Source: a virus
Length of the DNA: 31,826 nt
Reading direction: 5' to 3' (one strand)
Virus record (IMG/VR): IMGVR_UViG_3300046522_000530
Location: 1-31,826 of that record
Shown here: positions 19,727 through 31,826 of the stretch, piece after piece
How the letters are laid out: each line of letters starts with the position of its first letter
Numbering within the stretch: the stretch's first letter is position 1
The notes under the pieces: model-generated
What the model saw: the letters and a program-made list of their open reading frames with translations, nothing else
What the model was told of the DNA's origin: nothing
Databases searched by the model: none
Made by a program: the position numbers and the translations under genes

Positions 19727-20143
19727 TCAGAGCGGGTTGAGGTCGTAGACGGTCTTGGCGATGTCGGTGCGGGGGGTGATGTAGGCGTCGTGGTCGGCGA
19801 AGTCGGCGCCCGCGGTGCGGGCCTGGTCCTGGGTGTCGGTGGGGAGGGTGCGCAGGGCGGGGTTCTCGTCGGCGTTGAGGAGCCGGGCGACGAGCGCGGC
19901 GATGAGGGCGGCCACGTCGATCTGCGTGCCGGCCGGGTCGGTGGATCCGGCGAGCATCGTCACGACGGTCTGCGTCTGGGGGATCGTCAGCCGGTCCAGC
20001 GCCAGGAGCCGTACGCCGTCGGCGATGAGGTCCAGGCCGGGGTGGAAACCGACCAGGTCATCGAGGAGGCCGGCGAGGTCGTCGTTCAGGGGCGGGACCG
20101 CGTTGTCGGCGGTGTGCACGTGCGTGCCGGGGTGCGCGGCCAT
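19727..20143 (-). CDS. hypothetical protein
   Basis: 138 residues from ATG 20143, overlapping the upstream stop by one base. Its middle has several hydrophobic helices (LAGLLDDLVGFHPGLDLIADG, then VRLLALDRLTIPQTQTVVT, then VAALIAALVARLL) that are amphipathic rather than membrane-spanning. The ends are Asp-rich. No recognised domain. It belongs to the four-gene overlapping chain 21397 to 19727, so it is probably expressed with the early minus-strand transcript. Confidence 0.72.
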   Translation of the reverse strand: MAAHPGTHVHTADNAVPPLNDDLAGLLDDLVGFHPGLDLIADGVRLLALDRLTIPQTQTVVTMLAGSTDPAGTQIDVAALIAALVARLLNADENPALRTLPTDTQDQARTAGADFADHDAYITPRTDIAKTVYDLNPL

Positions 20144-20745
20144 CAGTCGTCGTCCTCGTCCGCGTACGGGTCGGCGATCTCACCGAACCAGCGGTCCAGC
20201 GCCTGCGTCACCGCCAGCTTGTTCACCTGCGGCTCGTTCAGGATTTCCCGGGTGATCTCCACCAGGTCCAGGCTGGTGAACGTGTCCGTGATGACCGCAG
20301 CCACCTCCGGGGTGCGCTGGGCGACCGCAGCCGCCGACCACTCCCCCGAGTCGATGACCTCGCCGACGAACCCGCCCGGGCGGGCGACGACCGCCTCCTT
20401 GATCCCGTCGGCCAGGTTCCGGAGGGCTCCATCGATCGGAGACTCGCTACCGACGTACGCGTTCTTGGAATCGATCGCGTCGGCCAGGTCTTCGGCCTGC
20501 TTGGCGGTGAGGTCGATGCTGTGGCAGCGGGCGACGTCGTCCCCGGTAACCCCAATCGGGGCGAGGTTCAGGCGGATCGTCGGCTTGTCACCGGGCTTCC
20601 GCAGTCCCTCCAGTAGGTGCAGGGCCTCGGACAGGTGCTCGATGGCCCGGTTCCGAACTGCCTTCTCCGCCTCGCAGAGCGGGCAGTCAGTAACGAAGTG
20701 CGGGGTCTTGAGGTGGCTGTGCCCGGCGTCCATGTTGCGCTCCAT
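20143..20745 (-). CDS. hypothetical protein with N-terminal zinc-knuckle-like motif
   Basis: 200 residues from ATG 20745; a GTG three bases earlier is also possible. The start overlaps the preceding stop by one base (TGATG). Near the N-terminus HFVTDCPLCEAEKAVRN gives a C-x2-C that with nearby His could bind zinc. The rest is mixed (IRLNLAPIGVTGDDVARCHS, then LTAKQAEDLADAIDS) and ends in a very acidic tail PYADEDDD. No family known to me. It is a soluble cytoplasmic protein of the early leftward operon. Confidence 0.75.
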   Translation of the reverse strand: MERNMDAGHSHLKTPHFVTDCPLCEAEKAVRNRAIEHLSEALHLLEGLRKPGDKPTIRLNLAPIGVTGDDVARCHSIDLTAKQAEDLADAIDSKNAYVGSESPIDGALRNLADGIKEAVVARPGGFVGEVIDSGEWSAAAVAQRTPEVAAVITDTFTSLDLVEITREILNEPQVNKLAVTQALDRWFGEIADPYADEDDD

Positions 20746-20927
20746 CACGACACCTTCTTCACGATGACGTGGAAGGAGTCGGTGGCGAGGTTCATGACGA
20801 CCTCGGCGGGCTGGCCCTCGCTGCGGCGGGCGGCGGCGAACTCCTCAGCCGGCCACGAGCCGCGCGGGGCGCCAGCGGGGAACGTCTCGAGGATGCGGGC
20901 GGTCGGGGTGGTGGTCTTGGTGGCCAT
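20745..20927 (-). CDS. small protein, unknown
   Basis: 60 residues from ATG 20927, coupled to the upstream gene (TGATG overlap) and to the downstream one in the same way. The sequence has a disordered N-terminus, EEFAAARRSEGQPAEVVMNL, then DSFHVIVKKVS, which looks like a small beta-hairpin plus strand. No cysteines or membrane segments. There is no independent Shine-Dalgarno of note, so translation probably depends on its neighbours. Confidence 0.68.
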   Translation of the reverse strand: MATKTTTPTARILETFPAGAPRGSWPAEEFAAARRSEGQPAEVVMNLATDSFHVIVKKVS

Positions 20928-21397
20928 CACGCGCTCACCGCCAGCAGCAGACGAGCGTCGCTGGCCAGTTGCTGAAGAGGCAGATCCAGGTCGAGAGCCT
21001 CCGCCGTGTCCGCCGGGATACCGGTCAACGCGGTGAACAGCGTGTCAATGTCCCGCAGGATCGCCGAGTAGGCGTCGTCGACCGCCTTCTGTGCGGCACG
21101 CGCGGCACGGCGGTCAGCCTCCCACTGCTGACCGCTGCTCCAGGCGGCGGCCTTAGCGGTCTGCTCGGCCTTGGTGTTCAGCTCGGCCAGGTGGTACGTC
21201 GGGCCACCCAGGATGCGCAGAACGCGCAGGAGCCGGTCGCCGGTGATCGTGGTGGTGTTCGTGATGCGGTGCTTGTTCGAAGCCCAGCGGGCGAAGTCTG
21301 CCGCGAGACGATCCACGGGCAGTACGCCGGACGCGTCCTTGTGGACGAAGTCGCTGGGGTCGGCTGTGCGGGTTGCCATATGGCGGATACGATCCAT
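20927..21397 (-). CDS. first gene of the early leftward operon, unknown
   Basis: 156 residues from ATG 21397, with CAGGGAGGCC upstream; an ATG at 21379 has no such signal. A long open frame above it continues to 21946 through the control region and is not used. The protein is helical: DRLAADFARWASNKHRITN, LLRVLRILGGPTYHLAELN, then QQWEADRRAARAAQKAVDD and an alpha-rich end (AEALDLDLPLQQLASDARLL). No known domain. It lies about 120 bases downstream of the leftward promoter proposed at 21525-21553 and therefore opens that transcript. Confidence 0.74.
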   Translation of the reverse strand: MDRIRHMATRTADPSDFVHKDASGVLPVDRLAADFARWASNKHRITNTTTITGDRLLRVLRILGGPTYHLAELNTKAEQTAKAAAWSSGQQWEADRRAARAAQKAVDDAYSAILRDIDTLFTALTGIPADTAEALDLDLPLQQLASDARLLLAVSA

Positions 21398-21476
21398 AGC
21401 GGATCGGCCTCCCTGATATGTGCAGGTGGGCGGGTTCTTGTCCGTGGCGGTGTAGGAGCCGCTTCGGGACACGCGG

Positions 21477-21503
21477 CCCCGGTCCGGCAATTGCTGGCCG
21501 GGG
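21477..21503 (-). promoter_or_regulatory. GC-rich hairpin in the leftward leader
   Basis: CCCCGG (21477-21482) pairs with CCGGGG (21498-21503), extended by CC/GG after a one-base bulge, around a GCAATTGC core. It would form just after the proposed leftward start (about 21518), so it may attenuate or stabilise the leader. In the plus direction it is followed by a T-rich stretch (TCGTTTCG). Confidence 0.45.
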
Positions 21504-21524
21504 TCGTTTCGTTGTGCTGATACG

Positions 21525-21563
21525 AGAGTCCCGCACCCCGTGGACTTTGTCAACAAGGTGCGG
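21525..21563 (-). promoter_or_regulatory. leftward promoter with flanking operator-like inverted repeat
   Basis: In the minus direction a consensus -35 TTGACA (21553-21548) is followed after 17 bases by GACTCT (21530-21525), a weak but permissible -10. A perfect 7-bp inverted repeat, CCGCACC (21531-21537) and GGTGCGG (21557-21563), brackets the -35 element. Its midpoint coincides with the -35 edge, which suits a repressor. The divergent HTH gene starts 20 to 40 bases away and may be controlled by the same site. Confidence 0.5.
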
Positions 21564-21581
21564 CATGATGAGGGAGAAGCG

Positions 21582-21851
21582 TTGACCAACGAGGAAAAGG
21601 AGGAGCCCCGCTTGCTGACCATTCCGGAGATCGCGGTGGACCGTGGTATCAGTCGCCAACTGGTCCACCGGATCGCACAGTCAGATCCGGCGTTCCCTCC
21701 CCCCGTGATCACGCCAGGAAGCACGCGGGCGAAGTACCCAGCCGACAAGGTCGCCGAGTTCTTCGAGAACCGGGTGATCCGTCCGGGCCGGCGTACAGAC
21801 CTGGAAGCCAGGCAGAGACGGGAGGACCCGGGATCGGACGACAAGGACTGA
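21582..21851 (+). CDS. small HTH protein, AlpA/excisionase-like
   Basis: 89 residues from TTG 21582, which has GAGGGAGAAG at correct spacing; an in-frame GTG at 21540 lies inside the operator region and has none. Residues about 12-60 are a winged or MerR-like helix-turn-helix: TIPEIAVDRGISRQLVHRIA, followed by the FPPPV wing-type segment and YPADKVAEFFENR. This is the layout of AlpA-like regulators and excisionases. The C-terminal tail is charged. It is probably a regulator acting on the adjacent divergent promoter. No integrase is nearby, so excision is less likely. Confidence 0.75.
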   Translation: MTNEEKEEPRLLTIPEIAVDRGISRQLVHRIAQSDPAFPPPVITPGSTRAKYPADKVAEFFENRVIRPGRRTDLEARQRREDPGSDDKD

Positions 21852-21936
21852 CGAGTCGTCTGCATGGCCCCTCCGGTGTCGTCGATCAGTGCTGACCCCA
21901 TGCCAGCACCAGCCGCGCCCCCTGGAGTTGAGGCCG

Positions 21937-21972
21937 CTGTTGGCAATCAGGCCGACGACGATTTGCCAACAG
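21937..21972 (+). promoter_or_regulatory. perfect 10-bp inverted repeat upstream of the XRE gene
   Basis: CTGTTGGCAA (21937-21946) and TTGCCAACAG (21963-21972), separated by 16 bases, end 64 bases before the XRE start. The two half-sites are 26 bases apart centre to centre, about two and a half helical turns, so a dimer spanning both is possible. Autoregulation by the XRE protein is the natural guess. Confidence 0.55.
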
Positions 21973-22036
21973 ACAAAGACCGCGAACAGGGCGCCAAGCC
22001 CTCCCGACAAGACGAGAGAGGAGGAAGACTCGGCGC

Positions 22037-23242
22037 ATGACGACCTTCCCGGAACTGCTCCGTGAGTGGCGCCTGGCTGCCCACATGTCCCTTGCGGACC
22101 TGGCCCAGCGCGTCCGCTACGACCGCACGTCGCTGCACAACTTCGAGACCGGCCGCCGGCCGACCCCGCTGTGTGTGGCGGAGGCAGCGGACGAGGCGAC
22201 CGGCGCGAACGGCGCGCTGGTGGAGGCGTGGAACCGGGAGGACCTTCAGCGGCGGGAGGCTGCGGCGACGCATCGGGTGAGGGCTGCGGCCCTGGCCATG
22301 ACGCGGGATCTGACCGCGCTGGCAGACCTGGACATCGCCGAGCTGCAGGACGGTGTGGCCGTCACGGCGGTCGACTACCTGGCGTCTCCCCCGGGTCCGA
22401 TGATGGACCGGGCGCACGTGCTGCGCGGTGAGGCGTTCGAGCGGATCCGGTCTGGGCATCACCGTCCGGCTGACCGGTCCGATCTGTACGTGGCCGCGGG
22501 CCGCCTGTCCGGGGTGCTGTCGTACGCGCTGCTGGACATGGGCGATGCGGACGAGGCGCTCGAGCACGCCACCGCGGCGGGCCGGTGTGCCGAGTTCGCC
22601 GGGGATGCCGAGCTGGCCGCGTGGGTGGCCGGGACGAAGTCGCTGATCGCTCGCTTTCAGGGCGACTACGGGCGCGCGCTGGAGTATGTGCGGGACGGCT
22701 ACCAGTGGGTCGGGGCCGGGCACGGTACCGGTGAGGCGCGTCTGCGCTGCGGTGAGGCCCAGTGCCTCGCGAACCTCGGCGACTCGAGGGCCGCGAACCA
22801 GGCCCTGGACGGCGCCGAAGCCGCACGGGAACGGATCCGCCGCCCGGACACCCTGGAGGGCTTGTTCGGGTTCTCGAGGGCGAAGCAGTCCTACTACGCC
22901 GGGTCTTCGCTGATCTGGCTGCAGGGCGGGCACGACGCGGAGCGCGCGCAGCGGGAAGCCCTCGAGGCGATCGCGCTGTGGCAGTCCGGTCCGGTGGAGG
23001 AGCGGTCGCTGGATGATGAGCGGCTCGCCCACATCTACCTCGCCACCGCCCGGGTGCAGCTCGATGACGTGGAGGGCGCGGCCGATGCCCTGATCCCGGT
23101 CCTGTCGTTGCCAGTGGAAGACCAGATTTCGTGGATCGTGAAGCGCATGGACCGGGTGGCGGGAATGCTCGGTGCTCCCCGGTACGCCGGTAACCAGACC
23201 GCTTCGGAGACTGTCGAGCAGATCAACGCCCTCGCGGCGTGA
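22037..23242 (+). CDS. XRE-family regulator with TPR-like C-terminal domain
   Basis: 401 residues from ATG 22037 with AGGAGGAAG upstream. Residues about 5-50 form an XRE helix-turn-helix (LLREWRLAAHMSLADLAQRV, then YDRTSLHNFETGRRP). The remainder is built from helical TPR-like repeats (GRLSGVLSYALLDMGDADEA, AELAAWVAGTKSLIARFQGD, then CLANLGDSRAANQALDGAEA). This type is abundant in Streptomyces, where the TPR part senses small signals or partner proteins. Here it is the best candidate for the master switch of the element. No phage CI-like peptidase domain is present. Confidence 0.88.
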   Translation: MTTFPELLREWRLAAHMSLADLAQRVRYDRTSLHNFETGRRPTPLCVAEAADEATGANGALVEAWNREDLQRREAAATHRVRAAALAMTRDLTALADLDIAELQDGVAVTAVDYLASPPGPMMDRAHVLRGEAFERIRSGHHRPADRSDLYVAAGRLSGVLSYALLDMGDADEALEHATAAGRCAEFAGDAELAAWVAGTKSLIARFQGDYGRALEYVRDGYQWVGAGHGTGEARLRCGEAQCLANLGDSRAANQALDGAEAARERIRRPDTLEGLFGFSRAKQSYYAGSSLIWLQGGHDAERAQREALEAIALWQSGPVEERSLDDERLAHIYLATARVQLDDVEGAADALIPVLSLPVEDQISWIVKRMDRVAGMLGAPRYAGNQTASETVEQINALAA

Positions 23243-23390
23243 GAGGAGACGAGGACAAGGTAGTGCGATCACCGCCCTGAACAGCAGAAACGGCCGCTCG
23301 GTGGCTAGACCGACGACCGTTCCCGCGCCGGCGTACTGCGAATACGACACGGCGATGACAGCCCAATCCTCTGCAAGGAAGGCAGCCGAG

Positions 23391-23750
23391 ATGACTCTAC
23401 TTGTTGGCGATCCTCTCGCGCTGCCCCCGTTCGCTCCGGGGAGGAGCGCGTTGAAGCAGCCTGATCCGAGAACGGTGGACGCCATCCCGCCCGTCGTGAC
23501 GTTCGCAACCGGAGCCGACCTCTTGGTCCGCCTCGGCCTCGCGAAGAACATGACCCGCGAGGGCGTACGCCGCGTCTCCAAGCACCCCAATTGGCCGTTC
23601 GGACCGGACCGCCCGTACCCGTACTGGGACCTGGCGAACGCCGACGTCATGGAGACCGAGCCGTTCCTGAAGTTCTTCCGGGACCACCCAGTCGTGGGGC
23701 GCGGCCCGGACAAGGAGCCACGCCGCAGCAAGGCCACTGGCCAGCAATAA
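23391..23750 (+). CDS. small DNA-binding-like protein
   Basis: 119 residues from ATG 23391 with AAGGAAGG at good distance; an in-frame ATG at 23355 lacks a signal. Residues about 35-75 (ATGADLLVRLGLAKNMTREG, then VRRVSKHPNWPFGPDRPYPY) look like a helix-turn-helix in which a strand-loop WPFGP follows the recognition helix, a pattern I associate with plasmid and phage regulators. The ends are disordered and the C-terminus is basic (GPDKEPRRSKATG). It may act with the XRE protein, 148 bases upstream, or in replication control just before rep. Confidence 0.65.
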   Translation: MTLLVGDPLALPPFAPGRSALKQPDPRTVDAIPPVVTFATGADLLVRLGLAKNMTREGVRRVSKHPNWPFGPDRPYPYWDLANADVMETEPFLKFFRDHPVVGRGPDKEPRRSKATGQQ

Positions 23751-23947
23751 AGGTCGCGTACTCCGATCAGCTCAGATCGCAGCCTGAGCCCGGAAACGCC
23801 GAACGGCCGGCTAGAGGTCGCAGCGCCCCATACCGGCCGTCCAAAGCATTGCCAGCGGATTGGCGTCCACTGGCTGGCGAAGCAGCACCGTCTTAAAGCG
23901 AGGCTTCATGCCCATCGTAGAGCCTGACGGCTATACGCCAAGTAGGA

Positions 23948-23979
23948 CCCCCGTACAGATCACTCACACGGTGCGGGGG
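23948..23979 (+). promoter_or_regulatory. hairpin covering the rep ribosome-binding site
   Basis: CCCCCG (23948-23953) can pair with CGGGGG (23974-23979) across a 20-base loop. The right arm contains the only purine-rich ribosome-binding sequence before the rep GTG at 23985. If formed, it would limit Rep translation and so copy number. Confidence 0.45.
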
Positions 23980-23984
23980 CGAAA

Positions 23985-25181
23985 GTGACGATCAACCCCC
24001 GTGCGACCCGGCGCGGCGGCCGTCTGGACTGGGTCAAGTTCGACTACGACCTGGCCCGGGACGGAAGCGTCGACCCGACTGACAAGGCCCTGTACGCGGC
24101 CATCGCATCGTTCGTAGACCTCGAGACCCGGGAATCCCCAGAGACCACGGACGTGGATCTGAACGGCATCCCCAGGGACGTCCCGACACGGAAGCGGCTT
24201 GCTGCGTGCATCGGGCGGTCCCTGGACACCGTGGACCGCTCCACCAAGAGGCTCGAGGACCGCGGCCTGCTGCGCGTGCACCGGCAGGAGGACCCCGACA
24301 ACCCGAAGTTGAGCCTGCCGAGCGAATACGAGCTGCTCGATCACGAACTCTGGGATCAGCGGGCAGCAGAAAGGGCTGCGAATCGGGCGGCACGTCGAGG
24401 TGAGAAGGGTGGCCGCATGGATGCGGCTACCCCCGGCCGCGCCAGTGCGGCTACCCCTGGCCGCATGGATGCGGCGGTAAAAGATGAGAGAGAAGTAGAA
24501 GAAGAGAAGGGTGGAGAGAAGGGAACTGACGGCCGGAGGCCCTCTACAGGTAGTAGGGGTTCGCGTGCTGGCGGCTCCGCCGCGTCCGGCAAGACGAAGC
24601 CCTCATTTTCCCGAGAGCAGCGTGGCCACTACGACGCGTTCGTGAAGGCCCTCCCTGCCCCTCTGGCCGCCTTGGTGCCGAGGGGGCTGCCGGATGCTCT
24701 GGTGCGGGCCGTTCTGGCTGCTGTGGACATCAGCAGTCCAGAGGGGCGGACTGTGGAGCAGCTGGTGGAGTACCGGTTGATGCCGAAGTGGGATCGGTAC
24801 TACAGCTCCCGGGACCAGGCCGGCCCGATCGAGAAGCCGGTGGGTGTGCTGGTGGCGATGCTGCGTCGGGATGCCGAGTGCGGGGACGCCCGGTGCGACG
24901 AGCGGACGAATGTCGACACGGGGCAGGCATGCAGCGCGTGCGAGATGCGGGCTGCGGACCGGCGTGCCGACCGCGAGAGGGAGCGGCAGGCCTCGGATGC
25001 GGCCGTGGTTCCGGCGGCCGTTCCTGGACCGCGCGCAGCCGCTCCCAGGGCGACGGCGGTTCCGGCGGTGAAGGTTGCGCCCGTGGTGGTGGACCCTGCG
25101 TCAGTTCCGCTTGGGAACTACCGAAGTGGTGCGCAGATGGCCCGGGCGGGAATGGTCGACAAGGCTTACCGGCCAAGGTGA
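23985..25181 (+). CDS. replication initiator with N-terminal winged HTH and C-terminal zinc motif
   Basis: 398 residues from GTG 23985. Residues 12-120 form an HTH_36-like winged helix (DKALYAAIASFVDLETRE, LAACIGRSLDTVDRSTKRL, LEDRGLLRVHRQED). Residues 143-166 hold three 8-residue repeats (GRMDAATP type) encoded by 24-bp tandem DNA repeats, then a Glu/Lys-rich linker. From about 200 a second folded domain follows, and near 305-330 CGDARC and CSAC look like a zinc finger. The lambda-O type design, an origin inside the initiator gene, is known for Streptomyces linear plasmid pSLA2 rep1. Helicase loading by the C-terminal domain is inferred. No helicase gene is in the window. Confidence 0.78.
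   Translation: MTINPRATRRGGRLDWVKFDYDLARDGSVDPTDKALYAAIASFVDLETRESPETTDVDLNGIPRDVPTRKRLAACIGRSLDTVDRSTKRLEDRGLLRVHRQEDPDNPKLSLPSEYELLDHELWDQRAAERAANRAARRGEKGGRMDAATPGRASAATPGRMDAAVKDEREVEEEKGGEKGTDGRRPSTGSRGSRAGGSAASGKTKPSFSREQRGHYDAFVKALPAPLAALVPRGLPDALVRAVLAAVDISSPEGRTVEQLVEYRLMPKWDRYYSSRDQAGPIEKPVGVLVAMLRRDAECGDARCDERTNVDTGQACSACEMRAADRRADRERERQASDAAVVPAAVPGPRAAAPRATAVPAVKVAPVVVDPASVPLGNYRSGAQMARAGMVDKAYRPR
24411..24524 (+). repeat. tandem 24-bp iterons plus purine-rich tract: candidate origin
   Basis: Three head-to-tail units with an exact 24-bp period start at 24411, 24435 and 24459. Units 1 and 3 contain CCGCATGGATGCGG, a 6-bp inverted repeat around GG; unit 2 is degenerate in its middle. 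Units 1 and 2 end CTACCCC. Directly after unit 3 (24476-24524) comes a stretch of about 49 bases with only about four pyrimidines, rich in AGA and GAA and the most A-rich sequence in this gene. In lambda, iterons inside gene O are followed by such a strand-asymmetric melting region. That parallel makes this the best origin candidate. Confidence 0.72.
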
Positions 25182-25186
25182 CCCCC

Positions 25187-25234
25187 GACACTGCCCATCT
25201 TGTATTGCGTACGTAATAGAAGATGGGTAGTGTC
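25187..25234. promoter_or_regulatory. 48-bp near-perfect palindrome containing a promoter (copy 1)
   Basis: Centred on CGTACG between 25210 and 25211, 21 of 24 base pairs match. The outer arms read GACACTGCCCATCTT and its complement. It begins six bases after the rep stop. A promoter is embedded: -35 TTGCGT (25205-25210), 17-bp spacer, -10 TAGTGT (25228-25233), so the palindrome would be an operator covering the whole promoter. The inner 29 bases (25198-25226) are identical to 27545-27573. As RNA it could also terminate rep transcription. Confidence 0.75.
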
Positions 25235-25246
25235 TTACCTGTCCCC

Positions 25247-25294
25247 CCGGGTCCTGACCGACTCTCCTTGGACCGACAGAAGGTCAGGACCCGG
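25247..25294 (+). promoter_or_regulatory. 13-bp perfect hairpin in the leader of promoter copy 1
   Basis: CCGGGTCCTGACC (25247-25259) and its exact complement (25282-25294) with a 22-base loop lie about 10 bases after the likely start of transcription and 90 bases before the next ATG (25387). No T-run follows. It could be an attenuator, a stabiliser or part of a small RNA. A half-operator-like TTACGCAA follows at about 25311. Confidence 0.6.
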
Positions 25295-25386
25295 TACTAC
25301 CGCCCTAGTTACGCAAGTACCACTCAGGCGGGCATGGCGAAAACCCTGCACTACAGCCCTCGTCATGTCTGCCTGGAGGTACACCC

Positions 25387-25548
25387 ATGTCTGAACCGCG
25401 CCCCAACTTCGACCAGAACCCGACCCCCCGCCTCGGCATCATCGCCCTCGCCGCCCTCTACCTGCTGATCCGCCTGATCGGAGGACAACCCGAAGACGCC
25501 GGCGCCCTCACCGCACTGGCCAGCCCCCTACTCGCCGTCCGCCTCTAG
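25387..25548 (+). CDS. 53-residue single-pass membrane protein
   Basis: ATG 25387 is preceded by TGGAGG eight bases away, a strong start signal. The protein has a polar N-terminus (MSEPRPNFDQNPTPR), one membrane helix (LGIIALAALYLLIRLIGG, residues 16-33), then a short acidic linker and a hydrophobic end (LTALASPLLAVRL) that might form a re-entrant helix. It is followed directly by a strong terminator, so it is the only gene of the transcript from the operator-promoter at 25205. Function is unknown. Confidence 0.78.
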   Translation: MSEPRPNFDQNPTPRLGIIALAALYLLIRLIGGQPEDAGALTALASPLLAVRL

Positions 25549-25550
25549 CC

Positions 25551-25582
25551 AGGGCCCACCCGACACCCCCCGGGTGGGCCCT
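25551..25582 (+). terminator. intrinsic terminator
   Basis: AGGGCCCACCCG (25551-25562) and CGGGTGGGCCCT (25571-25582) form a perfect 12-bp stem with an 8-base loop, followed by CTT. It begins two bases after the stop of the 53-residue gene. Confidence 0.85.
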
Positions 25583-25675
25583 CTTCGTGCGCCTAGGCAT
25601 TCGACTCACTCGAGGACTTCCAGGCCGCTCGAGCATCACAATCTGAAGCAGCACCCACCCACGAAACGGAGACCG

Positions 25676-26074
25676 ATGATCCCCGCCGATGGATCGCACT
25701 ACGTCCACTACGAGAAGAACAACAACGGCTACGTCCCCACGCTGCCCGTTGTCGCCTGGGACGACGACGGCTTCCCTCTCGTCATAAAGAGGGGCATGCT
25801 GCGCCGCGCCTCCGACCTCGGCAGCGTCACCGGCATCCATCAGAACCATGCCGCGGTCGTCGGCGCCGTACCGGGTGGTGGCTGGCTGATCGACTGCACC
25901 GACAGCGAAGGCAACTCCTGGACGACGCCGATCCTCGCCTGGACGATCCACGCGGACACCACGGCAATACCGCTTACGTCGGACAGCGACGGGGTGACCA
26001 GCGATGCGACGGAAGGCCTCGAGTCTTACCGCATCTACCACCCGGACATGACGGATGTTCAGAGCGGCGAGTAG
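25676..26074 (+). CDS. hypothetical protein
   Basis: 132 residues from ATG 25676 with GGAG upstream; the frame extends further up to 25574 but through the terminator. The protein is mainly beta-rich and soluble: PADGSHYVHYEKNNNGYVPT, LPVVAWDDDGFPLVIKRG, then HAAVVGAVPGGGWLIDC and WTTPILAWTIHADTTAIPL. Aromatic and Asp residues are frequent. I do not recognise the family. It is flanked by terminators on both sides and so is probably a single-gene unit. Confidence 0.78.
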   Translation: MIPADGSHYVHYEKNNNGYVPTLPVVAWDDDGFPLVIKRGMLRRASDLGSVTGIHQNHAAVVGAVPGGGWLIDCTDSEGNSWTTPILAWTIHADTTAIPLTSDSDGVTSDATEGLESYRIYHPDMTDVQSGE

Positions 26075-26087
26075 CCAGCTGCTCAGG

Positions 26088-26120
26088 GCCCGGCCATCAC
26101 CCCTCCGGTGGCCGGGCTTT
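26088..26120. terminator. intrinsic terminator between convergent genes
   Basis: GCCCGGCCA (26088-26096) and TGGCCGGGC (26109-26117) form a perfect 9-bp stem with a 12-base loop, followed by TTT on the plus strand. It separates the 132-residue plus-strand gene from the 94-residue minus-strand gene and may serve both. Confidence 0.85.
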
Positions 26121-26127
26121 CGCCTGC

Positions 26128-26412
26128 CTACCCGAGGGCGCCGACTCCCTGTGTGGTGACCTCCATCAGGTCAGGGTTCGCGCCGTCCGCCGGCACCACG
26201 ATCCGGATCAGGTTCAGGTCGTACAGCCGCAGCATCGCCCCGTACAGGCCGAGCTGGAGTTCCGTCCACGCCTCGCGCTTCGGGTCGTCCTCCGGGGCGT
26301 CAGAGTCGAATGTGGGCGGGTGGATGGTGTGGAAGAAGTCGGACGGTGCAACCGGCTCTTTGGCCTGGGCGACGAGTTCGAGGAGACGTCGTTCGTCGGT
26401 GTTCAGCGTCAT
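26128..26412 (-). CDS. small winged-helix-like protein
   Basis: 94 residues from ATG 26412. Upstream there is no Shine-Dalgarno, but CATACGCT, a good -10, ends about seven bases before the ATG, so the message is likely leaderless. The sequence (TLNTDERRLLELVAQAKEPV, SDFFHTIHPPTFDSD, then YGAMLRLYDLNLIRIVVPAD) reads as helix, helix, recognition helix and beta wing, a compact winged helix. A transcription-control role is plausible. No partner domain is present. It is convergent with the 132-residue gene. Confidence 0.68.
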   Translation of the reverse strand: MTLNTDERRLLELVAQAKEPVAPSDFFHTIHPPTFDSDAPEDDPKREAWTELQLGLYGAMLRLYDLNLIRIVVPADGANPDLMEVTTQGVGALG

Positions 26413-26447
26413 GCCGGACAGCGTATGCGGGTGCCGAGGGCCGCTGT

Positions 26448-26463
26448 ACGCCCCGTGGGGCGT
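26448..26463. promoter_or_regulatory. 16-bp operator-like palindrome
   Basis: ACGCCCC (26448-26454), GT, GGGGCGT (26457-26463) is a perfect inverted repeat in the divergent gap between the small winged-helix gene (start 26412, minus) and the zinc-ribbon gene (start 26552, plus). It may be the autoregulatory site of the former. Confidence 0.5.
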
Positions 26464-26503
26464 CTCGAGGACGCTTGTGCCACCCGATCCCCCGGCGTCC
26501 CGG

Positions 26504-26520
26504 CCGGTTCGCGCTCTACC
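26504..26520 (+). repeat. 17-bp repeat, copy 1 (copy 2 at 26824-26840)
   Basis: CCGGTTCGCGCTCTACC here and CCGGTTCGCGTTCTACC at 26824-26840 differ by a single base. Copy 1 lies 31 bases before a small zinc-ribbon gene and copy 2 lies 59 bases before a small membrane-protein gene. They may be shared regulatory sites or remnants of a duplicated promoter region. Confidence 0.65.
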
Positions 26521-26551
26521 CCCGCCCAGCCCGCTCGTTGACCCTCGAACC

Positions 26552-26809
26552 ATGGGCGCTGGGGAGCAGCTCAACACGTGTGAGGGATGCGGGAAGCCGG
26601 ACGGGCATGCCCGCCGGGTCCGAGACCTCGGGTTGAAGAATCCGCTCGCACTGTGCGGGGACTGCCTCGAGCACGCCCTGCGGTCGTGGGCGGGTGCCGA
26701 TCCGGTGCCGTTGACGACGTCGGAGGTGGAGCGGGCGGCCGCGGCGGGGATGGATCCGCGGATGCTGCGCCGGCGCCTCGACACCGCCCGCACGGGCGAT
26801 ACCGCCTGA
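26552..26809 (+). CDS. small zinc-ribbon protein
   Basis: 85 residues from ATG 26552. Two knuckles, CEGC near residue 10 and CGDC near 35, form a zinc ribbon around HARRVRDLGLKNPLAL. A helix follows (EHALRSWAGA), then a second helical part with SEVERAAAAGMDPRMLRRRL. No Shine-Dalgarno is visible, so the start is provisional. It resembles the many small Cys-rich proteins of actinophage early regions, whose molecular role is unknown to me. A nucleic-acid or host-protein binding role is inferred. Confidence 0.65.
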   Translation: MGAGEQLNTCEGCGKPDGHARRVRDLGLKNPLALCGDCLEHALRSWAGADPVPLTTSEVERAAAAGMDPRMLRRRLDTARTGDTA

Positions 26810-26899
26810 ACCGGGCCAGGTGTCCGGTTCGCGTTCTACCGGCTGACGTTCGGCGCGCGCATTCTGGCCGCGGGGAAGCAGCAGGCGGAGGGGGCGGGG

Positions 26900-27022
26900 A
26901 TGGCGAAGCGACGGCGGCCGCAACCACGAGACAACCGGGGCCGGTTCACGAAGACGGGCTTTCCGTTCTGGCTGGCTGTTCTGGTGGCTGTGGTCCTGGT
27001 GGCCTACGTCGTCGGAAAGTAG
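26900..27022 (+). CDS. 40-residue basic single-pass membrane protein
   Basis: ATG 26900 has GGAGGGGGC eight bases upstream. The protein begins MAKRRRPQPRDNRGRFTKTG, a very basic cytoplasmic segment, and ends with one membrane helix (FWLAVLVAVVLVAYVVG). The design resembles a membrane anchor that could hold DNA or act on host membrane proteins. There is no known family, and it is not part of any overlap chain. It is preceded by the second copy of the 17-bp repeat. Confidence 0.72.
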   Translation: MAKRRRPQPRDNRGRFTKTGFPFWLAVLVAVVLVAYVVGK

Positions 27023-27085
27023 CTGGCCCCGGAGCGAGGGGAAAGCTGGTCGACCGCCCTCAGGCCCTACGGCCTCGGGGCGTCG

Positions 27086-27289
27086 TCATGCCGCGGTGTC
27101 GTCGTCCGCGGCAGTTGGCAGCTCGGTGTGGCCCTCTGACCAGTCGTTCACCCAACCGCACGGCGAGCAGGAGTAGCGCCCGTTGATCCCGTAGATCTCT
27201 GTGCCGCAGCGTCGGCAGGCCGTCGTGGTGATCTCCTGCCCGCTCAGGAATTCCGCGGCCGGCGTGCGCGGGGATGGGGTGGCTGTCAT
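27086..27289 (-). CDS. zinc-ribbon protein, second of a pair
   Basis: 67 residues from ATG 27289, whose ATGA overlaps the stop of the 43-residue gene upstream. The middle has CRRCGTEIYGINGRYSCSPC, two C-x2-C knuckles 14 residues apart, a compact zinc ribbon similar to those in transcription factors and topoisomerases. The ends are disordered, and the tail is acidic. A longer open frame continues to 27622, but its extra part is an antisense shadow of the neighbouring reading frame. Confidence 0.72.
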   Translation of the reverse strand: MTATPSPRTPAAEFLSGQEITTTACRRCGTEIYGINGRYSCSPCGWVNDWSEGHTELPTAADDDTAA

Positions 27290-27417
27290 GGGCGGGAGCC
27301 TATCGTCGGGGCGGGCGCGGTACCGGAGATGGGGCCGCATTGCGGGCATGACCAGGAGCCGTCGGGGCCTTGCTGGGCCTGTCCTCCGCAGTTCGGACAG
27401 TTCACGGTGTCCACCAT
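27286..27417 (-). CDS. 43-residue zinc-ribbon protein, first of a pair
   Basis: Reads from ATG 27417 to the TGA at 27286-27288, overlapping the next gene by 4 bp. The sequence MVDTVNCPNCGGQAQQ followed by DGSWSCPQCG gives two C-x2-C knuckles. The overlap and the matching ribbon in the downstream partner make it a real gene despite the short length and the absence of a good ribosome-binding site. The pair may form one functional unit. Confidence 0.62.
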   Translation of the reverse strand: MVDTVNCPNCGGQAQQGPDGSWSCPQCGPISGTAPAPTIGSRP

Positions 27418-27544
27418 CCTTGGTTCGCGTTGTCGGGTCTCTTGAGGATCCCGCGGGAGGTGTGCGGGCGGTAGGTGGCGGGGCCGGTTTGGGCCGCCAT
27501 CGGGGCGCGTCGGGGCGGGGGTTGGGGGGCTTCCCCTCCCCGTC

Positions 27545-27580
27545 TCTTGTATTGCGTACGTAATAGAAGATGGCTAGACT
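27545..27580 (+). promoter_or_regulatory. promoter with palindromic operator (copy 2)
   Basis: The 29 bases 27545-27573 are identical to 25198-25226. Here the palindrome is limited to 27545-27570 (TCTT to AAGA, two mismatched pairs) around CGTACG. The embedded promoter has -35 TTGCGT (27552-27557), a 17-bp spacer and -10 TAGACT (27575-27580). Transcription would run into the plus-strand gene string that starts at 27685. The same regulator should act on both copies. Confidence 0.75.
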
Positions 27581-27684
27581 GGCCCCACACCACACCACAC
27601 CCCCGACCCAAGGCCGGGGCAATGCCGTGCCCGATCCACGCCAGGCTGGACCTGGACCCGCCTCCCCGCCCCTGGAGCAACCCC

Positions 27685-27930
27685 ATGACCGAAACCCCGC
27701 AGCCGCGCACTGACATCGACGACCTTCAGGCGCGCGCCGAAGCCTGTGCCGAGGGCGACTGCCCGCACGCCTACCAGGCCCGCAAAGCCGAACGCGAAGC
27801 CGAACGCGAAGCCGCTGGCTACCGGCACGAGCTGGAGGGCCTGGCGGACTACCTCGAAGACCGGGACGGCATCGACCCGGCCGTGGCCGTCACGCTGCGC
27901 GGCATTCTCGCCCGCGCCCTGGACCGCTGA
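27685..27930 (+). CDS. first gene of the rightward accessory operon, unknown
   Basis: 81 residues from ATG 27685 with TGGAG upstream; an in-frame ATG at 27622 would add 21 residues rich in Pro. It has a helical, strongly charged centre (YQARKAEREAEREAAGYRHE) and a C-terminal helix (DPAVAVTLRGILARALDR). Two cysteines (EACAEGDCPHAY) could bind metal. No family recognised. It follows the copy-2 promoter by about 100 bases and opens a long plus-strand series. Confidence 0.72.
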   Translation: MTETPQPRTDIDDLQARAEACAEGDCPHAYQARKAEREAEREAAGYRHELEGLADYLEDRDGIDPAVAVTLRGILARALDR

Positions 27931-28015
27931 CCTCGTGACCTCACGCAGGACGGTCAGCCCCGGGGCGGGGCTGACCGCGGAAACCACCCAACCACACCGA
28001 TCAAGGAGCAGCCTC

Positions 28016-28429
28016 GTGAGGCGTACCACGTGTTCCTCGTGCGGAGGTTCCCGCCCGCTGGCTACCAAAGACTGGTGCCACACCTGCTACCAACGATGGG
28101 TCCGTCACGGTCGGCCTGAGGGTGGGCCTCCAGCTCCGAAGCCTCTCCAGCCGTGCGGCACGGATGCTGCCTATCAACGACACGTCGCATACGGCGAGCC
28201 GATCGACGACGCCTGCCGGGACGCACGCAACGCCGCCCAGAATCAGCGGCGCGCCAAGCACCGCGCGGAGTCCAGCAGCCGCGGCCGGTGGACGGATGAG
28301 CAGACCCGAGCTACACGTGCCGTAGCCATCGCCACCGCTGACAGTCCGACAGACCGCCGTCTCCTGCTTGAGGTCTTGGGGCTTGTGCCCGCTCTGGACA
28401 CGGCTGCCACCGGCCAACGCGTCGCATGA
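28016..28429 (+). CDS. zinc-finger protein of the accessory operon
   Basis: 137 residues from GTG 28016 with AAGGAG eight bases upstream. The N-terminus contains CSSCGG, then WCHTCYQRW, a zinc ribbon with four cysteines. Next comes PCGTDAAYQRHVAYGEPIDD plus ACRDARNAAQN, a motif I know from small actinobacterial and phage proteins but whose function is not established. The rest is helical and basic (RRAKHRAESSSRGRWTDEQT). It may bind DNA or host RNA polymerase, which is conjecture. Confidence 0.72.
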   Translation: MRRTTCSSCGGSRPLATKDWCHTCYQRWVRHGRPEGGPPAPKPLQPCGTDAAYQRHVAYGEPIDDACRDARNAAQNQRRAKHRAESSSRGRWTDEQTRATRAVAIATADSPTDRRLLLEVLGLVPALDTAATGQRVA

Positions 28430-28505
28430 CCACGAGCACGGCCGCCCCTGTCGGAATCAGGGGGGCCGGCCCGGACATCCTCTCGCACGATCAAGGAGCC
28501 ACACC

Positions 28506-28922
28506 ATGACCGACCCCCGCATTGCCGTCCTGTCCGCCCTGTCCTCGCCCGGCTGGCATCCCGTCCCCGAAGCGCATGGCATGCCGTGGGATGAGGCCGA
28601 GCAGCTGCTCGCCGCCTACGACGCTTCCCGAGCTGCCGCTGCACCGTCTGCGCCCGCCGACCGGGCGGCCGTGCTGCGGGAGGCCGCCGACATCGCCGAC
28701 CGGCTGATGGATGAGCGGTACGGACCGGACTGCTCCTACGCGATCGGCGGCGAGGACGTCGCCCGCGAGCTGCGCCGCGTGGCCGACGAGGCGCAGCAGC
28801 CCGAGACGCAGGCCGACGACGAGCCGCCCTGCACGTGCGCCGCCGCCGGGGACTGCTTCGCCCCGGCTGGCCACTACGCCGACTGCCCCGCCGCTGTGTC
28901 CCAGCCCGGCAAGGAGGCCTGA
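28506..28922 (+). CDS. accessory-operon protein with C-terminal cysteines, unknown
   Basis: 138 residues from ATG 28506 with the same GATCAAGGAGC context as the preceding gene. The N-terminal half has HGMPWDEAEQLLAAYDASRA, then DRAAVLREAADIADRLMDER and GEDVARELRRVADEAQ, regular helices of a type common in Streptomyces phage small proteins. The C-terminus holds CTCAAAGDCF and GHYADCPAA, a possible zinc site. Its role is unknown. Confidence 0.74.
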   Translation: MTDPRIAVLSALSSPGWHPVPEAHGMPWDEAEQLLAAYDASRAAAAPSAPADRAAVLREAADIADRLMDERYGPDCSYAIGGEDVARELRRVADEAQQPETQADDEPPCTCAAAGDCFAPAGHYADCPAAVSQPGKEA

Positions 28923-28924
28923 TC

Positions 28925-29110
28925 GTGGCCGTCGCCGACCGGAAGAAGCTGCTACGCCAACTCGAAGGCCGCATACGGCGGGGCATCGCCCTCACCGACA
29001 CACGCTGGCAGCTCAGGGACACCGGCATGACAGCAGACGAACTGTGGGCGTTCGAACTGCCGATCCGACGCCGCATCCGCGAGGAACGAACAGGAAGGAA
29101 GTCCGCGTGA
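28925..29110 (+). CDS. small basic protein, unknown
   Basis: 61 residues from GTG 28925, two bases after the preceding stop, and overlapping the next start by 4 bp. Very basic (VADRKKLLRQLEGRIRRGIA, then ELPIRRRIREERTGRKSA) with a helical core (TAWQL-like, MTADELWAFE). The charge suggests nucleic-acid binding. No family known. The tight spacing indicates translational coupling on both sides. Confidence 0.7.
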   Translation: MAVADRKKLLRQLEGRIRRGIALTDTRWQLRDTGMTADELWAFELPIRRRIREERTGRKSA

Positions 29111-29685
29111 CCACCACCCAGGCCACGATCCCGGCCGTCGTCACCGAACCCGAACTCACCGCCTGGCTCGTCCAGGAACTCGGCCCCCACGTCGAGGACG
29201 ACTACCAGGCCGCCCGTCTCCTCCTCAACACCTTCGACCTCGCGGCGAAGGAGGGCAACAGCCTCAACAACCCGCACCAGATCGCGAACTGCATCGCCTC
29301 CACACCCAGCACCGACGGGCCGTGGACCCCGGTCGACACCGCCGCGGCCGCGAAGCCCCTGCACGAGACCTACCGGATCACCCGGAAGCCCGCCAACCAC
29401 GCCCAGGGCCTCATAGACCTCCCCATGCCGGTGGTCGTGTCCCGGCACCAGTGCCCGTTCTGCCGCCGCTTCACCCGCGCCCGCCTGGAGCAGGTCCAGG
29501 ACCACATGACGCGCTGCTGGCAGAACCCCGGCCTGCGCTGCTGCAAGACCTGCACCCACCACCAGGACGGAAGCCACCCCGAAGACGACGAGTCCTGCAC
29601 CCACCCCGACGGGCCGGAGTGGGAGGACTACCGATTCCCCGTCCTGCACTGCCCGCTCTGGGAGAAAGAGGCCGGCCGTGACTGA
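29107..29685 (+). CDS. zinc-finger protein of the accessory operon
   Basis: 192 residues from GTG 29107 (GTGA overlap with the preceding stop). A helical N-terminal domain (LTAWLVQELGPHVEDDYQAA, then LLNTFDLAAKEGN) is followed by CPFCRRFTRARLEQVQDHMT, which has the look of a C2H2-like finger. Two further cysteine groups follow, CCKTCTHHQDG and ESCTHPDG, then FPVLHCPLWE. That gives up to eight zinc ligands. It could be a DNA-binding or adaptor protein. It is not a recognised enzyme. Confidence 0.75.
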   Translation: MTTTQATIPAVVTEPELTAWLVQELGPHVEDDYQAARLLLNTFDLAAKEGNSLNNPHQIANCIASTPSTDGPWTPVDTAAAAKPLHETYRITRKPANHAQGLIDLPMPVVVSRHQCPFCRRFTRARLEQVQDHMTRCWQNPGLRCCKTCTHHQDGSHPEDDESCTHPDGPEWEDYRFPVLHCPLWEKEAGRD

Positions 29686-30079
29686 CGCCCTTCCCGAGTT
29701 CCTTGTCACCTACCTGATGGAACGGGACGCCCAGCGCGCCAACGCCGTAGACGCGACGCTCGCCTGCCTGACCGAACGAGAGCGCCGTCTGGTTCGCGAA
29801 GCCGCTGTCATGGGCTACGTCCAGGGCCGCCGGTACCTGACGGGTGACGACCATCCCAAGGACTCCGCGGTCCTTCATCTCGTGGTCGACGCTTGTCTGG
29901 CAGCCCCCGACCTGTACCCGGTCATCACCGGTGTTCAGCCGTGCGGCGAGTGTCGTCACCCGGAGTACAACCACCGCGACGGCGAAGACCCCGTATCGCC
30001 CGGCGTCTGTCTCCAGTGCGAAGCGGAAGGCGCCGAGGAAGCGCACCACGACTACGCGGTTGCGGCCGCTGGTGAGTGA
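29678..30079 (+). CDS. accessory-operon protein with zinc motif, unknown
   Basis: 133 residues from GTG 29678, overlapping the previous gene by 8 bases. The N-terminal part is helical (PEFLVTYLMERDAQRANAVD, then LACLTERERRLVREAAVMGY). The C-terminal third has CGECRHPEYNHRDGEDPVSP and CLQCEAEG, two knuckles of C-x2-C type. It may act as a metal-dependent binding protein. No function assigned. Confidence 0.74.
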   Translation: MTDALPEFLVTYLMERDAQRANAVDATLACLTERERRLVREAAVMGYVQGRRYLTGDDHPKDSAVLHLVVDACLAAPDLYPVITGVQPCGECRHPEYNHRDGEDPVSPGVCLQCEAEGAEEAHHDYAVAAAGE

Positions 30080-30278
30080 CGTGAAGCGGTGTCGTGTCTG
30101 TGGCCGTCCTCTGCCCCGCAACCGGACTGGCATCGGCCCGGTCTGCGCACGCCGCCTGACCGGGCCCACATCACGCCGATCCAGCCGGCCCGCACCCGTA
30201 CCGCACGCCCCCGACATCCCGCCCGGGCAAGACGCCCTGGCCCTTTTCGAATATCAGCCGACCCTCTGGAGTCTCTGA
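30072..30278 (+). CDS. DUF6011-like zinc-ribbon protein
   Basis: 68 residues from GTG 30072; GTG 30081 is an alternative start that has GGTGAG before it. The N-terminus CRVCGRPLPRNRTGIGPVCA fits DUF6011, a short domain common in actinobacterial phages and plasmids. It is defined by a C-x2-C pair, a basic loop ending TGIGPVC, and a second Cys. The Pro/Arg-rich linker and the DALALFEYQPTLWSL end are less conserved. Its 3-prime end touches the methylase start (TGATG). Confidence 0.72.
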   Translation: MSDVKRCRVCGRPLPRNRTGIGPVCARRLTGPTSRRSSRPAPVPHAPDIPPGQDALALFEYQPTLWSL

Positions 30279-31102
30279 TGAAGCCGCCCGTTCCCTACTT
30301 CGGAGGCAAGGGACGTATCGCCCCCTGGATCGCCAGCCTGCTCCCCCAGCACCGGCACTACGTCGAACCGTTCGCCGGAGGCCTCTCCGTCCTCCTCGCC
30401 AAGCAGCCCAGCCCCATGGAAACGGTGAACGACCTGGACGGCGAACTGATGACGTTCTGGCGCGTCCTCCGCGACCGCCCCACCGAACTGATCCGCGCCT
30501 GCGCCCTCACCCCGCACTCCCGCGCCGAGCTCACCGCCACCTGGGACCCCACAGAAGACGACCTCGAGCTGGCCCGCCGCATCTGGTGCCGCCTCGCCCA
30601 AGGCCGCTCCGGGACCCTTCGCAACACCGGATGGCGCTTCTACATAGACCCGGCTGGCTCCGCAACGTCAATGCCCGGCTACCTCGAGGCCTACGTAGAC
30701 CGGCTCGCGGCCGCCGCCGAACGCCTCCACCGCGTATCGCTCGAGAACATGCCCGCCCTCGAACTCATCGCCAAGTACGGCAAGCAGCCCGACGTGCTGC
30801 TCTACATCGACCCGCCCTACTTGGGCACGACCCGCGGATGGGGCAACAACTACCGGATGGAGATGAAGGGCGACGACGAACACCGCGAGCTCGCGGCCGC
30901 GCTCCGCGAATGCCGCGCCTCCATCGTCCTCTCCGGCTACGACAGCCCCCTCTACACCGAGCTGTACGAGGACTGGTACCGGGTTAACCAGGCCACGATG
31001 ACCGGGAACGCCAAGGAGGCGAAGGGCCGCACTGAAGTCCTGTGGTCCAACCGTGTGCTGGCCGGACGGCTGTCCCTGTTTGACGACACCCTGCTGGCGT
31101 GA
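30278..31102 (+). CDS. Dam-type DNA adenine-N6 methyltransferase (D12 class)
   Basis: 274 residues from ATG 30278 with TGGAG upstream. Motifs in D12/Dam order: PYFGGK at 6-11 (S-adenosylmethionine motif X), YVEPFAGG at 28-35 (motif I), DPPY at 178-181 (motif IV, catalytic). The target-recognition region lies between. It transfers methyl groups to adenine in a short palindrome, with GATC the usual one for this class, though that is inference. No cognate restriction enzyme lies next to it. The Mrr-like nuclease at 10310 is far away. It probably protects the element or alters regulation after replication. Confidence 0.88.
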   Translation: MKPPVPYFGGKGRIAPWIASLLPQHRHYVEPFAGGLSVLLAKQPSPMETVNDLDGELMTFWRVLRDRPTELIRACALTPHSRAELTATWDPTEDDLELARRIWCRLAQGRSGTLRNTGWRFYIDPAGSATSMPGYLEAYVDRLAAAAERLHRVSLENMPALELIAKYGKQPDVLLYIDPPYLGTTRGWGNNYRMEMKGDDEHRELAAALRECRASIVLSGYDSPLYTELYEDWYRVNQATMTGNAKEAKGRTEVLWSNRVLAGRLSLFDDTLLA

Positions 31103-31218
31103 ACGACGTGATTCCCGCCGTGTGTATCGCCGGAGTGGTGTGGGGGCTCACGTACCTCGCGACCGTCGACTGGATCCACCCCGGCACCCGCACCCCACCC
31201 GAGAGGACCCGCCCGTGA
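31099..31218 (+). CDS. 39-residue single-pass membrane protein
   Basis: Reads from GTG 31099 (4-bp overlap with the methylase stop) to the TGA at 31216-31218, which overlaps the next GTG. The N-terminal half is a membrane helix (VIPAVCIAGVVWGLTYLATV, residues 4-23), followed by DWIHPGTRTPPERTRP. Size and the two-sided overlaps suggest a real small gene. Function unknown. Confidence 0.6.
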   Translation: MNDVIPAVCIAGVVWGLTYLATVDWIHPGTRTPPERTRP

Positions 31219-31439
31219 CCGACAGCATGGCCGCCCGGGTCCGCATAGCACTCGCCGCCGCAGGCCCCACCGTGGTGCCCGCCATGTTCAGGGACGCCTA
31301 CCAGCGCGGCGGCACTCCCACCCACACGCACCTGGTCGCCATCGCGGCCGCCGCCGGCACTACCCCGATATGGCTGATGACCGGCTGGCCCGCAGCCCAC
31401 GCCATCAACGCCCTCGAGAACAAGGAGCCCACCACGTGA
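31215..31439 (+). CDS. small HTH-like protein, unknown
   Basis: 74 residues from GTG 31215, overlapped on both sides by 4 bp. The sequence (MAARVRIALAAAGPTVVPAM, then FRDAYQRGGTPTHTHLVAIA and AAAGTTPIWLMTGWPA) looks like two to three short helices with a turn, which could be a small helix-turn-helix of the XRE kind. It is not strong enough to be sure. No metal ligands are evident. Confidence 0.62.
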   Translation: MTDSMAARVRIALAAAGPTVVPAMFRDAYQRGGTPTHTHLVAIAAAAGTTPIWLMTGWPAAHAINALENKEPTT

Positions 31440-31826
31440 GCGAGCAGATCGACACCCAACGCCGCGATCGGTACGCCGAAGCGATCAGCCGCGGCATGTC
31501 CGGAGCTGGCGAACGGGTCAGCGTTCGAACCGCAACTGTGCAGGAGACCACCGAAGCCGTGATGGCTGTCGCGGACGCGGAACTGCACCGCATGGTCAAC
31601 GAGGCGCTGCTCAACCAGCCTGCCCTGCGCACCTGCCTCGTGCCTGGCTGTCTGCGCCAGTACGACGCGATGTCCTGCATGGCCGGCGACCCGCCTCCGC
31701 GCCCCGAGTGGTCCGGGACGGGCTGGGCCACGCTCGGATCCGGCACGATCTTCCCCGCGGGCGGGCACATCTGCCCCGACCACAAGCAGTTGGTCACCGA
31801 CCATCTGCCCCGCCGCGTGAAGCTCC
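31436..31826 (+). CDS. protein with zinc-ligand cysteines (partial, C-terminus outside window)
   Basis: At least 130 residues from GTG 31436 (4-bp overlap with the preceding gene) and still open at the right edge. The N-terminal part is helical (RRDRYAEAISRGMSGAGERV, then TEAVMAVADAELHRMVNEAL). Downstream lie TCLVPGCLRQY, MSCMAG and HICPDHKQL, with four or more cysteines that could bind zinc. It continues the string of Cys-rich accessory proteins. No function assigned. Confidence 0.72.
   Translation, partial: MSEQIDTQRRDRYAEAISRGMSGAGERVSVRTATVQETTEAVMAVADAELHRMVNEALLNQPALRTCLVPGCLRQYDAMSCMAGDPPPRPEWSGTGWATLGSGTIFPAGGHICPDHKQLVTDHLPRRVKL

Follow-up and report, generated by a model that had tools for sequence, protein, structure and literature searches.

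Why do two promoter-like regions lying far apart in one viral DNA fragment carry the same 29-bp palindromic sequence, and which protein would read it? The question is raised by the IMG/VR record IMGVR_UViG_3300046522_000530, analysed over its positions 1 to 31,826 (31,826 nucleotides, hereafter the window), a piece of a Streptomyces phage-plasmid belonging to the pZL12-like family. The answer towards which this analysis leans is that the 29-bp block is an operator laid over the -35 and the spacer of each promoter, that it serves as the shared switch of a regulon extending over the whole phage-plasmid, and that a small protein, termed here P5div, would be the repressor.

The repeated block and the sites across the element

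Positions 25198-25226 and 27545-27573 are the same over 29 bp, and 32 of 33 positions agree when the comparison is lengthened. This block is the longest exact repeat of the 31,826 bases and the sole one of at least 20 bp; with up to three mismatches allowed, 27 bases of the block are present twice in the window, compared with 0.00 times in 100 shuffles. The initial annotation had reported this identity, the arrangement of TTGCGT, 17 bp and TAG at both copies and a 48-bp palindrome around the first of them, and all three were borne out: TTGCGT-N17-TAG occurs at the two copies and nowhere else in the window (expected 0.08), and a recount gave 21 matching pairs of 24 for copy 1 (25187-25234). At copy 2 just 14 of 24 pairs match over the equivalent 48-bp span, so the inner part alone is palindromic. 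The putative P1 operator occupies 25187-25234 on the plus strand, with its core TATTGCGTACGTAATA at 25203-25218, and a promoter-like pair is predicted at 25205-25233 (TTGCGT 25205-25210, 17 bp, TAGTGT 25228-25233). The putative P2 operator, on the same strand, takes up 27545-27573 with its core at 27550-27565, and the predicted pair lies at 27552-27580 (TTGCGT 27552-27557, 17 bp, TAGACT 27575-27580). The hexamer CGTACG was rejected as the shared unit: it is frequent, with 13 matches in the window, so the unit is the element of about 30 bp and not the 6-bp core.

The window encodes a terminase, has capsid, terminase and other proteins in common with plasmid W02 and viral contig G003, and its structural genes have close relatives among circular Streptomyces phage-plasmids of about 90 kb; Megablast of positions 20000-31826 against phages gave no match. 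An exact scan of viral contigs with 22 bases of the block found six stretches on three contigs (65.6, 74.9 and 93.2 kb), and a degenerate form of the block found eleven stretches on five contigs. The degenerate block was also found in four stretches among 84,980 species genomes, of which S. olivochromogenes DSM 40451 has two, both on its 93-kb contig, while the other two, probably chance matches, are in one Clostridia and one Spirochaetales metagenome-assembled genome. Circular Streptomyces plasmids bearing phage genes came to light through BLAST (NZ_CP109440 and NZ_CP130725), and tblastn with a protein of NZ_CP130725 gave 27 Streptomyces plasmid records, 20 of which were among the matches listed. 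Nineteen further plasmids were taken whole, 18 among the tblastn matches listed and one from another search. Together with the window (G000), the five contigs G001-G005 of viral origin and the 21 plasmids W01-W21 make up the set of 27 records used below.

A search upstream of other genes in relatives, proposed with the initial annotation, showed that the longer records carry the element ahead of about five early-type operons, at promoters which are orthologous between records and are numbered P1-P5; the window holds P1 and P2. Grouped by their flanks, P1-P5 are recognised in G001, G003 and W01 and P1-P4 in G002, and both sites of the window have counterparts in all four. In W01 the promoters P1 and P2 are directed rightward, P3 and P4 leftward and P5 divergently; P3 and P4 read into long runs of small genes including SSB, HNH and WhiB genes, and the structural genes are without a site. 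For counting, a site was defined as TTG[CT], 3-4 bp and RCMA or GTAA, with a TANNNT -10 at a distance of 17-18 bp from the -35; the two half-sites had to agree in at least 7 of 12 letters. This rule was composed after the known sites had been viewed. It gives 98 matches in the 27 records, whereas none of five dinucleotide shuffles of the complete set gave any, and 102 matches in 28 records compared with 2 in the reversed-sequence control. The plasmid pZL12, which stood outside the set from which the rule was made, has four matches, all with TATTGC and GCAATA half-sites, three being intergenic and the fourth running over the start annotated for pZL12.12c. In pSAM1, P5 is present together with a weaker site at 40184. 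A divergent site may score twice, and the 98 matches represent 86 distinct places, 23 at P5 and 63 elsewhere. Non-P5 places occur in 23 of the 27 records, with one to four distal places in each record having any, and the P5 of W19 escapes the strict rule owing to its -10.

The half-sites vary between lineages and largely agree within one genome. TATTGC with GTAATA is found in the window, G001, G002, W01 and most sites of G003, and YATTGC with GCMATR in W02-W05. Most sites of W06-W09 and W16 have TTGT with ACMAT, the distal sites of W13 have TCTTGC with GCMAGA, and W14 has CCATTGC with GCAATGG. A 3-bp centre is present in W10, W19 has GTTGC-CGC-GCAAC at P5 and at two other sites, and the operator of W21 is CATTGCCATGGCAATG. 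The presence of the same element at orthologous promoters, together with its largely concerted change, makes shared control by one element-encoded factor well supported, and this part of the initial annotation stood; the two regulators it had named did not, as is described below. Some observations speak against a single switch in each genome. The concert of the predicted operators within genomes is incomplete, since the centres of G003 are mixed (TA at P1 and P2, CG at P3-P5), W19 carries two operator kinds, and W11 and W12 mix 3- and 4-bp centres. Moreover, the strict rule finds no non-P5 site in W15, W17 and W21 (nor in the fragment G004); looser searches gave candidate distal sites in W15 and W21.

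The block could also be a mere strong promoter, or a partition, replication or packaging site, with no dedicated repressor. Its form is always promoter-like and the spacer is conserved beyond the palindrome too, which would suit such a role; nevertheless we consider it improbable, because the palindromic arms extend past the -35 and vary jointly from lineage to lineage, which would not be accounted for by a host sigma factor that stays constant, and because the ten sites of W01 and W02 are without exception promoter-like and placed between annotated genes, with the ParA and ParB genes lying apart.

The P5 locus and the candidate repressor

In each of the 24 P5 regions that were read, two divergent genes flank the operator, a WYL-type gene on one side (replaced by a different gene in G001 and G004) and the gene of the small protein P5div on the other. 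The P5div gene heads an operon also containing replication genes (Rep, DciA), and recombinase-type genes (ERF, Rad52, Bet) come after it. By profile, P5div was detected in 24 of the 27 records, always at P5, and the three records without it are fragments; the 31,826-base window lacks the P5 locus, and neither P5div nor h62598, a second candidate discussed below, was found in it by profile. In pZL12 the profile matches at E 3e-79, twice within one protein (7-187 and 200-294), so the long forms contain an internal duplication, and the P5div gene with its divergent neighbour is present in both pZL12 and pSAM1. TTG stands on both strands at 23 of 23 P5 places and at 22 of 63 others (Fisher 9e-9, uncorrected for kinship); in the other 41 of 63 non-P5 places the reverse strand has TTAC, TGGC or TGGT and the reverse TTG is gone. 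The simple reading would be that transcription starts in both directions at P5 and that a backward -35 is no longer present in many of the other copies. Distal copies of W10-W12, W14, W19 and G005 retain the reverse TTG, so the direction pattern is not general. A second operator-like copy, adjoining a GGAGG-type ribosome site, lies 53-78 bp off (start to start) on the P5div side in W02, W03, W11, W14 and W17.

Where the sites lie, how symmetric they are and how they vary by lineage can be read directly from the records. We infer that these sequences act as promoters and, because the palindrome covers both the -35 and the spacer, that a bound protein would repress them. The preferred candidate is P5div, which would bind the half-sites of the operators and, as long as the element is a plasmid, keep RNA polymerase off every one of these promoters, repressing its own gene via P5; when P5div is lost or diluted, the early operons would be switched on jointly. 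Such control may serve immunity, the plasmid state, or the two together. Gene position favours P5div, since the operator stands in front of its gene: of the regulator-like genes inspected, none but the P5div gene and the neighbouring WYL gene are preceded by an operator.

Covariation was followed by distance (Mantel) tests in the 15 of 36 query families having at least 18 records, with G004 excluded and the best open reading frame (ORF) per record taken without hand checks. The distances of P5div correlate with operator distances (Spearman 0.399, 0 of 500 permutations; partial 0.240, 1 of 300), and those of the WYL protein give 0.169 (partial 0.011). It counts against P5div as the binder that h62598 does as well (0.459, partial 0.264) and that h72814, apparently a membrane protein, is ranked at the top (0.581, partial 0.298). 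The tests are not decisive; they speak against the family of the protein encoded at 23391 (-0.148, partial -0.226) and leave P5div and h62598 undivided. It is rather unlikely, in our opinion, that a different conserved early protein, chiefly the small winged-helix-like h62598, binds the operator and that P5div does something else. This protein is present in 24 of the 27 records, shows weak similarity to HTH_17 (E 0.0077) and follows the operator a little more closely than P5div does; however, its gene sits just upstream of P4 with no operator ahead of it in W01, so it would not be autoregulated, and in W14 its match is split over the record ends.

The initial annotation had named the XRE protein (gene at 22037) or the 23391 protein as the repressor. 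Both are encoded near P1 and the former has an HTH_31 domain (E 8e-11), yet we regard this proposal as very improbable and both proteins were rejected as binders. The XRE gene is present in just five of the 27 records (G000, G001, G003, W11 and W20) and was not found in G002, a 65.6-kb contig with operators equal to those of the window and with a GntR-like gene in the corresponding region. The 23391 family occurs in 26 of the 27 records, and its divergence runs counter to that of the operator: the window and G001 have the same operator and 23391 proteins only 48% identical, whereas the window and W14 have differing operators and 23391 proteins 70% identical. The regulator slot upstream of this near-universal gene (22037-23242 of the window) is exchangeable, being occupied by XRE with TPR in the five records listed above and by a GntR-like gene in G002, G005, W01 and W02.

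As to its fold, P5div is probably a single-chain ribbon-helix-helix (RHH) protein, like F TraY, with two RHH motifs per chain and probably four in the long forms, to which weak evidence from several sides points. The protein matches Pfam Arc (E 0.0027 and 0.0041) and a PHROG Arc-like family (E 0.012), and the predicted structure of the G003 protein has strand-helix-helix twice, at a predicted local distance difference test score (pLDDT) of 69. VIA-align matched four F relaxosome entries at Z 5.6-5.9 over residues 84-190, the matched chains of which would be TraY judging from chain length; unrelated rows reach Z 6.9 on the N-terminal helices, so this match alone is a lead. The fold is called into question by the Pfam Arc scores of 18.0 and 17.4 bits, which miss the curated cut-off of 20.4, and by the only middling confidence of the G003 model and the pLDDT of 34 of the long-form model. 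Class-1 members of P5div gave no match to Pfam Arc, a Foldseek search with the P5div structure in PDB and BFVD returned nothing below E 0.001, and the profile reached Arc among PDB sequences only at E 0.39-0.95, a further search adding no convincing RHH match. The small RHH protein Arc of phage P22 represses the early operon to which it belongs and is a true dimer with a single operator region, whereas P5div, weakly matched to it by profile, is a probable single chain with an element-wide operator set.

The usual Arg in the RHH2 strand is gone in 6 of 7 records with TTGT or mixed P5 half-sites and in 2 of 17 with TTGC (Fisher p 0.0013, with hand-set classes and kinship uncorrected), which makes this position a possible specificity residue, confounded by kinship. 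In W06-W09, W16 and W17 this Arg of LNVR is replaced by Thr or Met. A conserved Arg/Pro-rich start (RPPRGPRP-like) precedes the helices at the N-terminus of P5div, for example at L176 3001-3080, mostly outside the annotated starts, and it could be a DNA-binding arm.

It was also considered that P5div is not a repressor conferring immunity but a plasmid-state controller in the Kor/TraY manner, which would hold down replication and early genes. The operon of P5div includes Rep and DciA, which the plasmid state requires, and the closest lead to the fold of P5div is a plasmid protein, F TraY. Such a role taken alone is unlikely, as the operators span early operons all over the element and vary by lineage, like immunity systems, and the two purposes are not exclusive.

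Genes behind P1 and P2

All genes named here lie on the plus strand of the window. P1 is followed by an ORF for a 53-aminoacid membrane peptide (25387-25548), which has no Pfam or PHROG match; homologues occur at 70% in G001 and G002 and at 58% in G005, whereas no match to it was found in G003 or W01, so the first gene after P1 varies. The second ORF (25676-26074) matches DUF6253 (Pfam E 1.4e-5). The leader after P1 contains a hairpin at 25247-25294, CCGGGTCCTGACC...GGTCAGGACCCGG, part of which is missing from the aligned G001 and G002. The first gene after P2, identified as an ORF at 27685-27930, has no Pfam or PHROG match, and further in the series stands the gene of a D12-class adenine-specific DNA methyltransferase (30272-31102, Pfam E 1.2e-22).

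Relation to known systems

Cluster A mycobacteriophages (L5, Bxb1, Trixie) possess a repressor with operators and stoperators, as described in PMC6550527, and the likeness lies in one set of sites per genome, a phage-specific consensus and a setting in actinobacterial temperate phages. According to the same source, their sites are oriented, stand mostly outside promoters and number up to about 30 per genome, whereas those of the phage-plasmids are about five, palindromic and placed at promoters, with a candidate protein of another kind. The cluster A consensus is there described as following the repressor, while here the operators are lineage-specific and the correlation found for P5div is also seen for other proteins. 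F TraY is described as having an RHH-dimer fold within a single polypeptide (PMC12117103), and P5div would resemble it in the predicted RHH-dimer fold within one chain and in the weak relaxosome match. Unlike TraY, which acts at oriT, P5div would have promoters as its sites, and it carries an extra N-terminal basic stretch and a helical hairpin.

Genome-wide operator sets with a phage-specific consensus (PMC6550527) and single-chain RHH proteins were thus known already. A literature search, with the original pZL12 paper outside its reach, found no operator or repressor of pZL12/pSAM1-type elements; nor did it show such an operator set joined to a single-chain RHH protein in pZL12-like phage-plasmids, with the operator acting as a -35 both ways at one locus. 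In 2020 pZL12 was termed a singleton without close relatives (PMC7157519), and pSLE1 was later annotated by means of pZL12 (PMC4487206); with the 27 Streptomyces plasmid records obtained by tblastn, the pZL12-like family is now large.

A two-copy repeat becomes in this way a regulon traceable in 28 records, with a named candidate repressor. A wider proposal is put forward tentatively, as one which we would not expect to hold in full: a single-chain RHH master repressor would silence Streptomyces phage-plasmids through an operator doubling as the -35, a fully symmetric copy would create a two-way promoter at the repressor locus and an altered half-site would set direction elsewhere, and the operator lineages would be separate immunity or compatibility groups. 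The regulon also predicts which Streptomyces phage-plasmids would be mutually exclusive, and pZL12 and pSAM1 are known elements, which makes tests practical.

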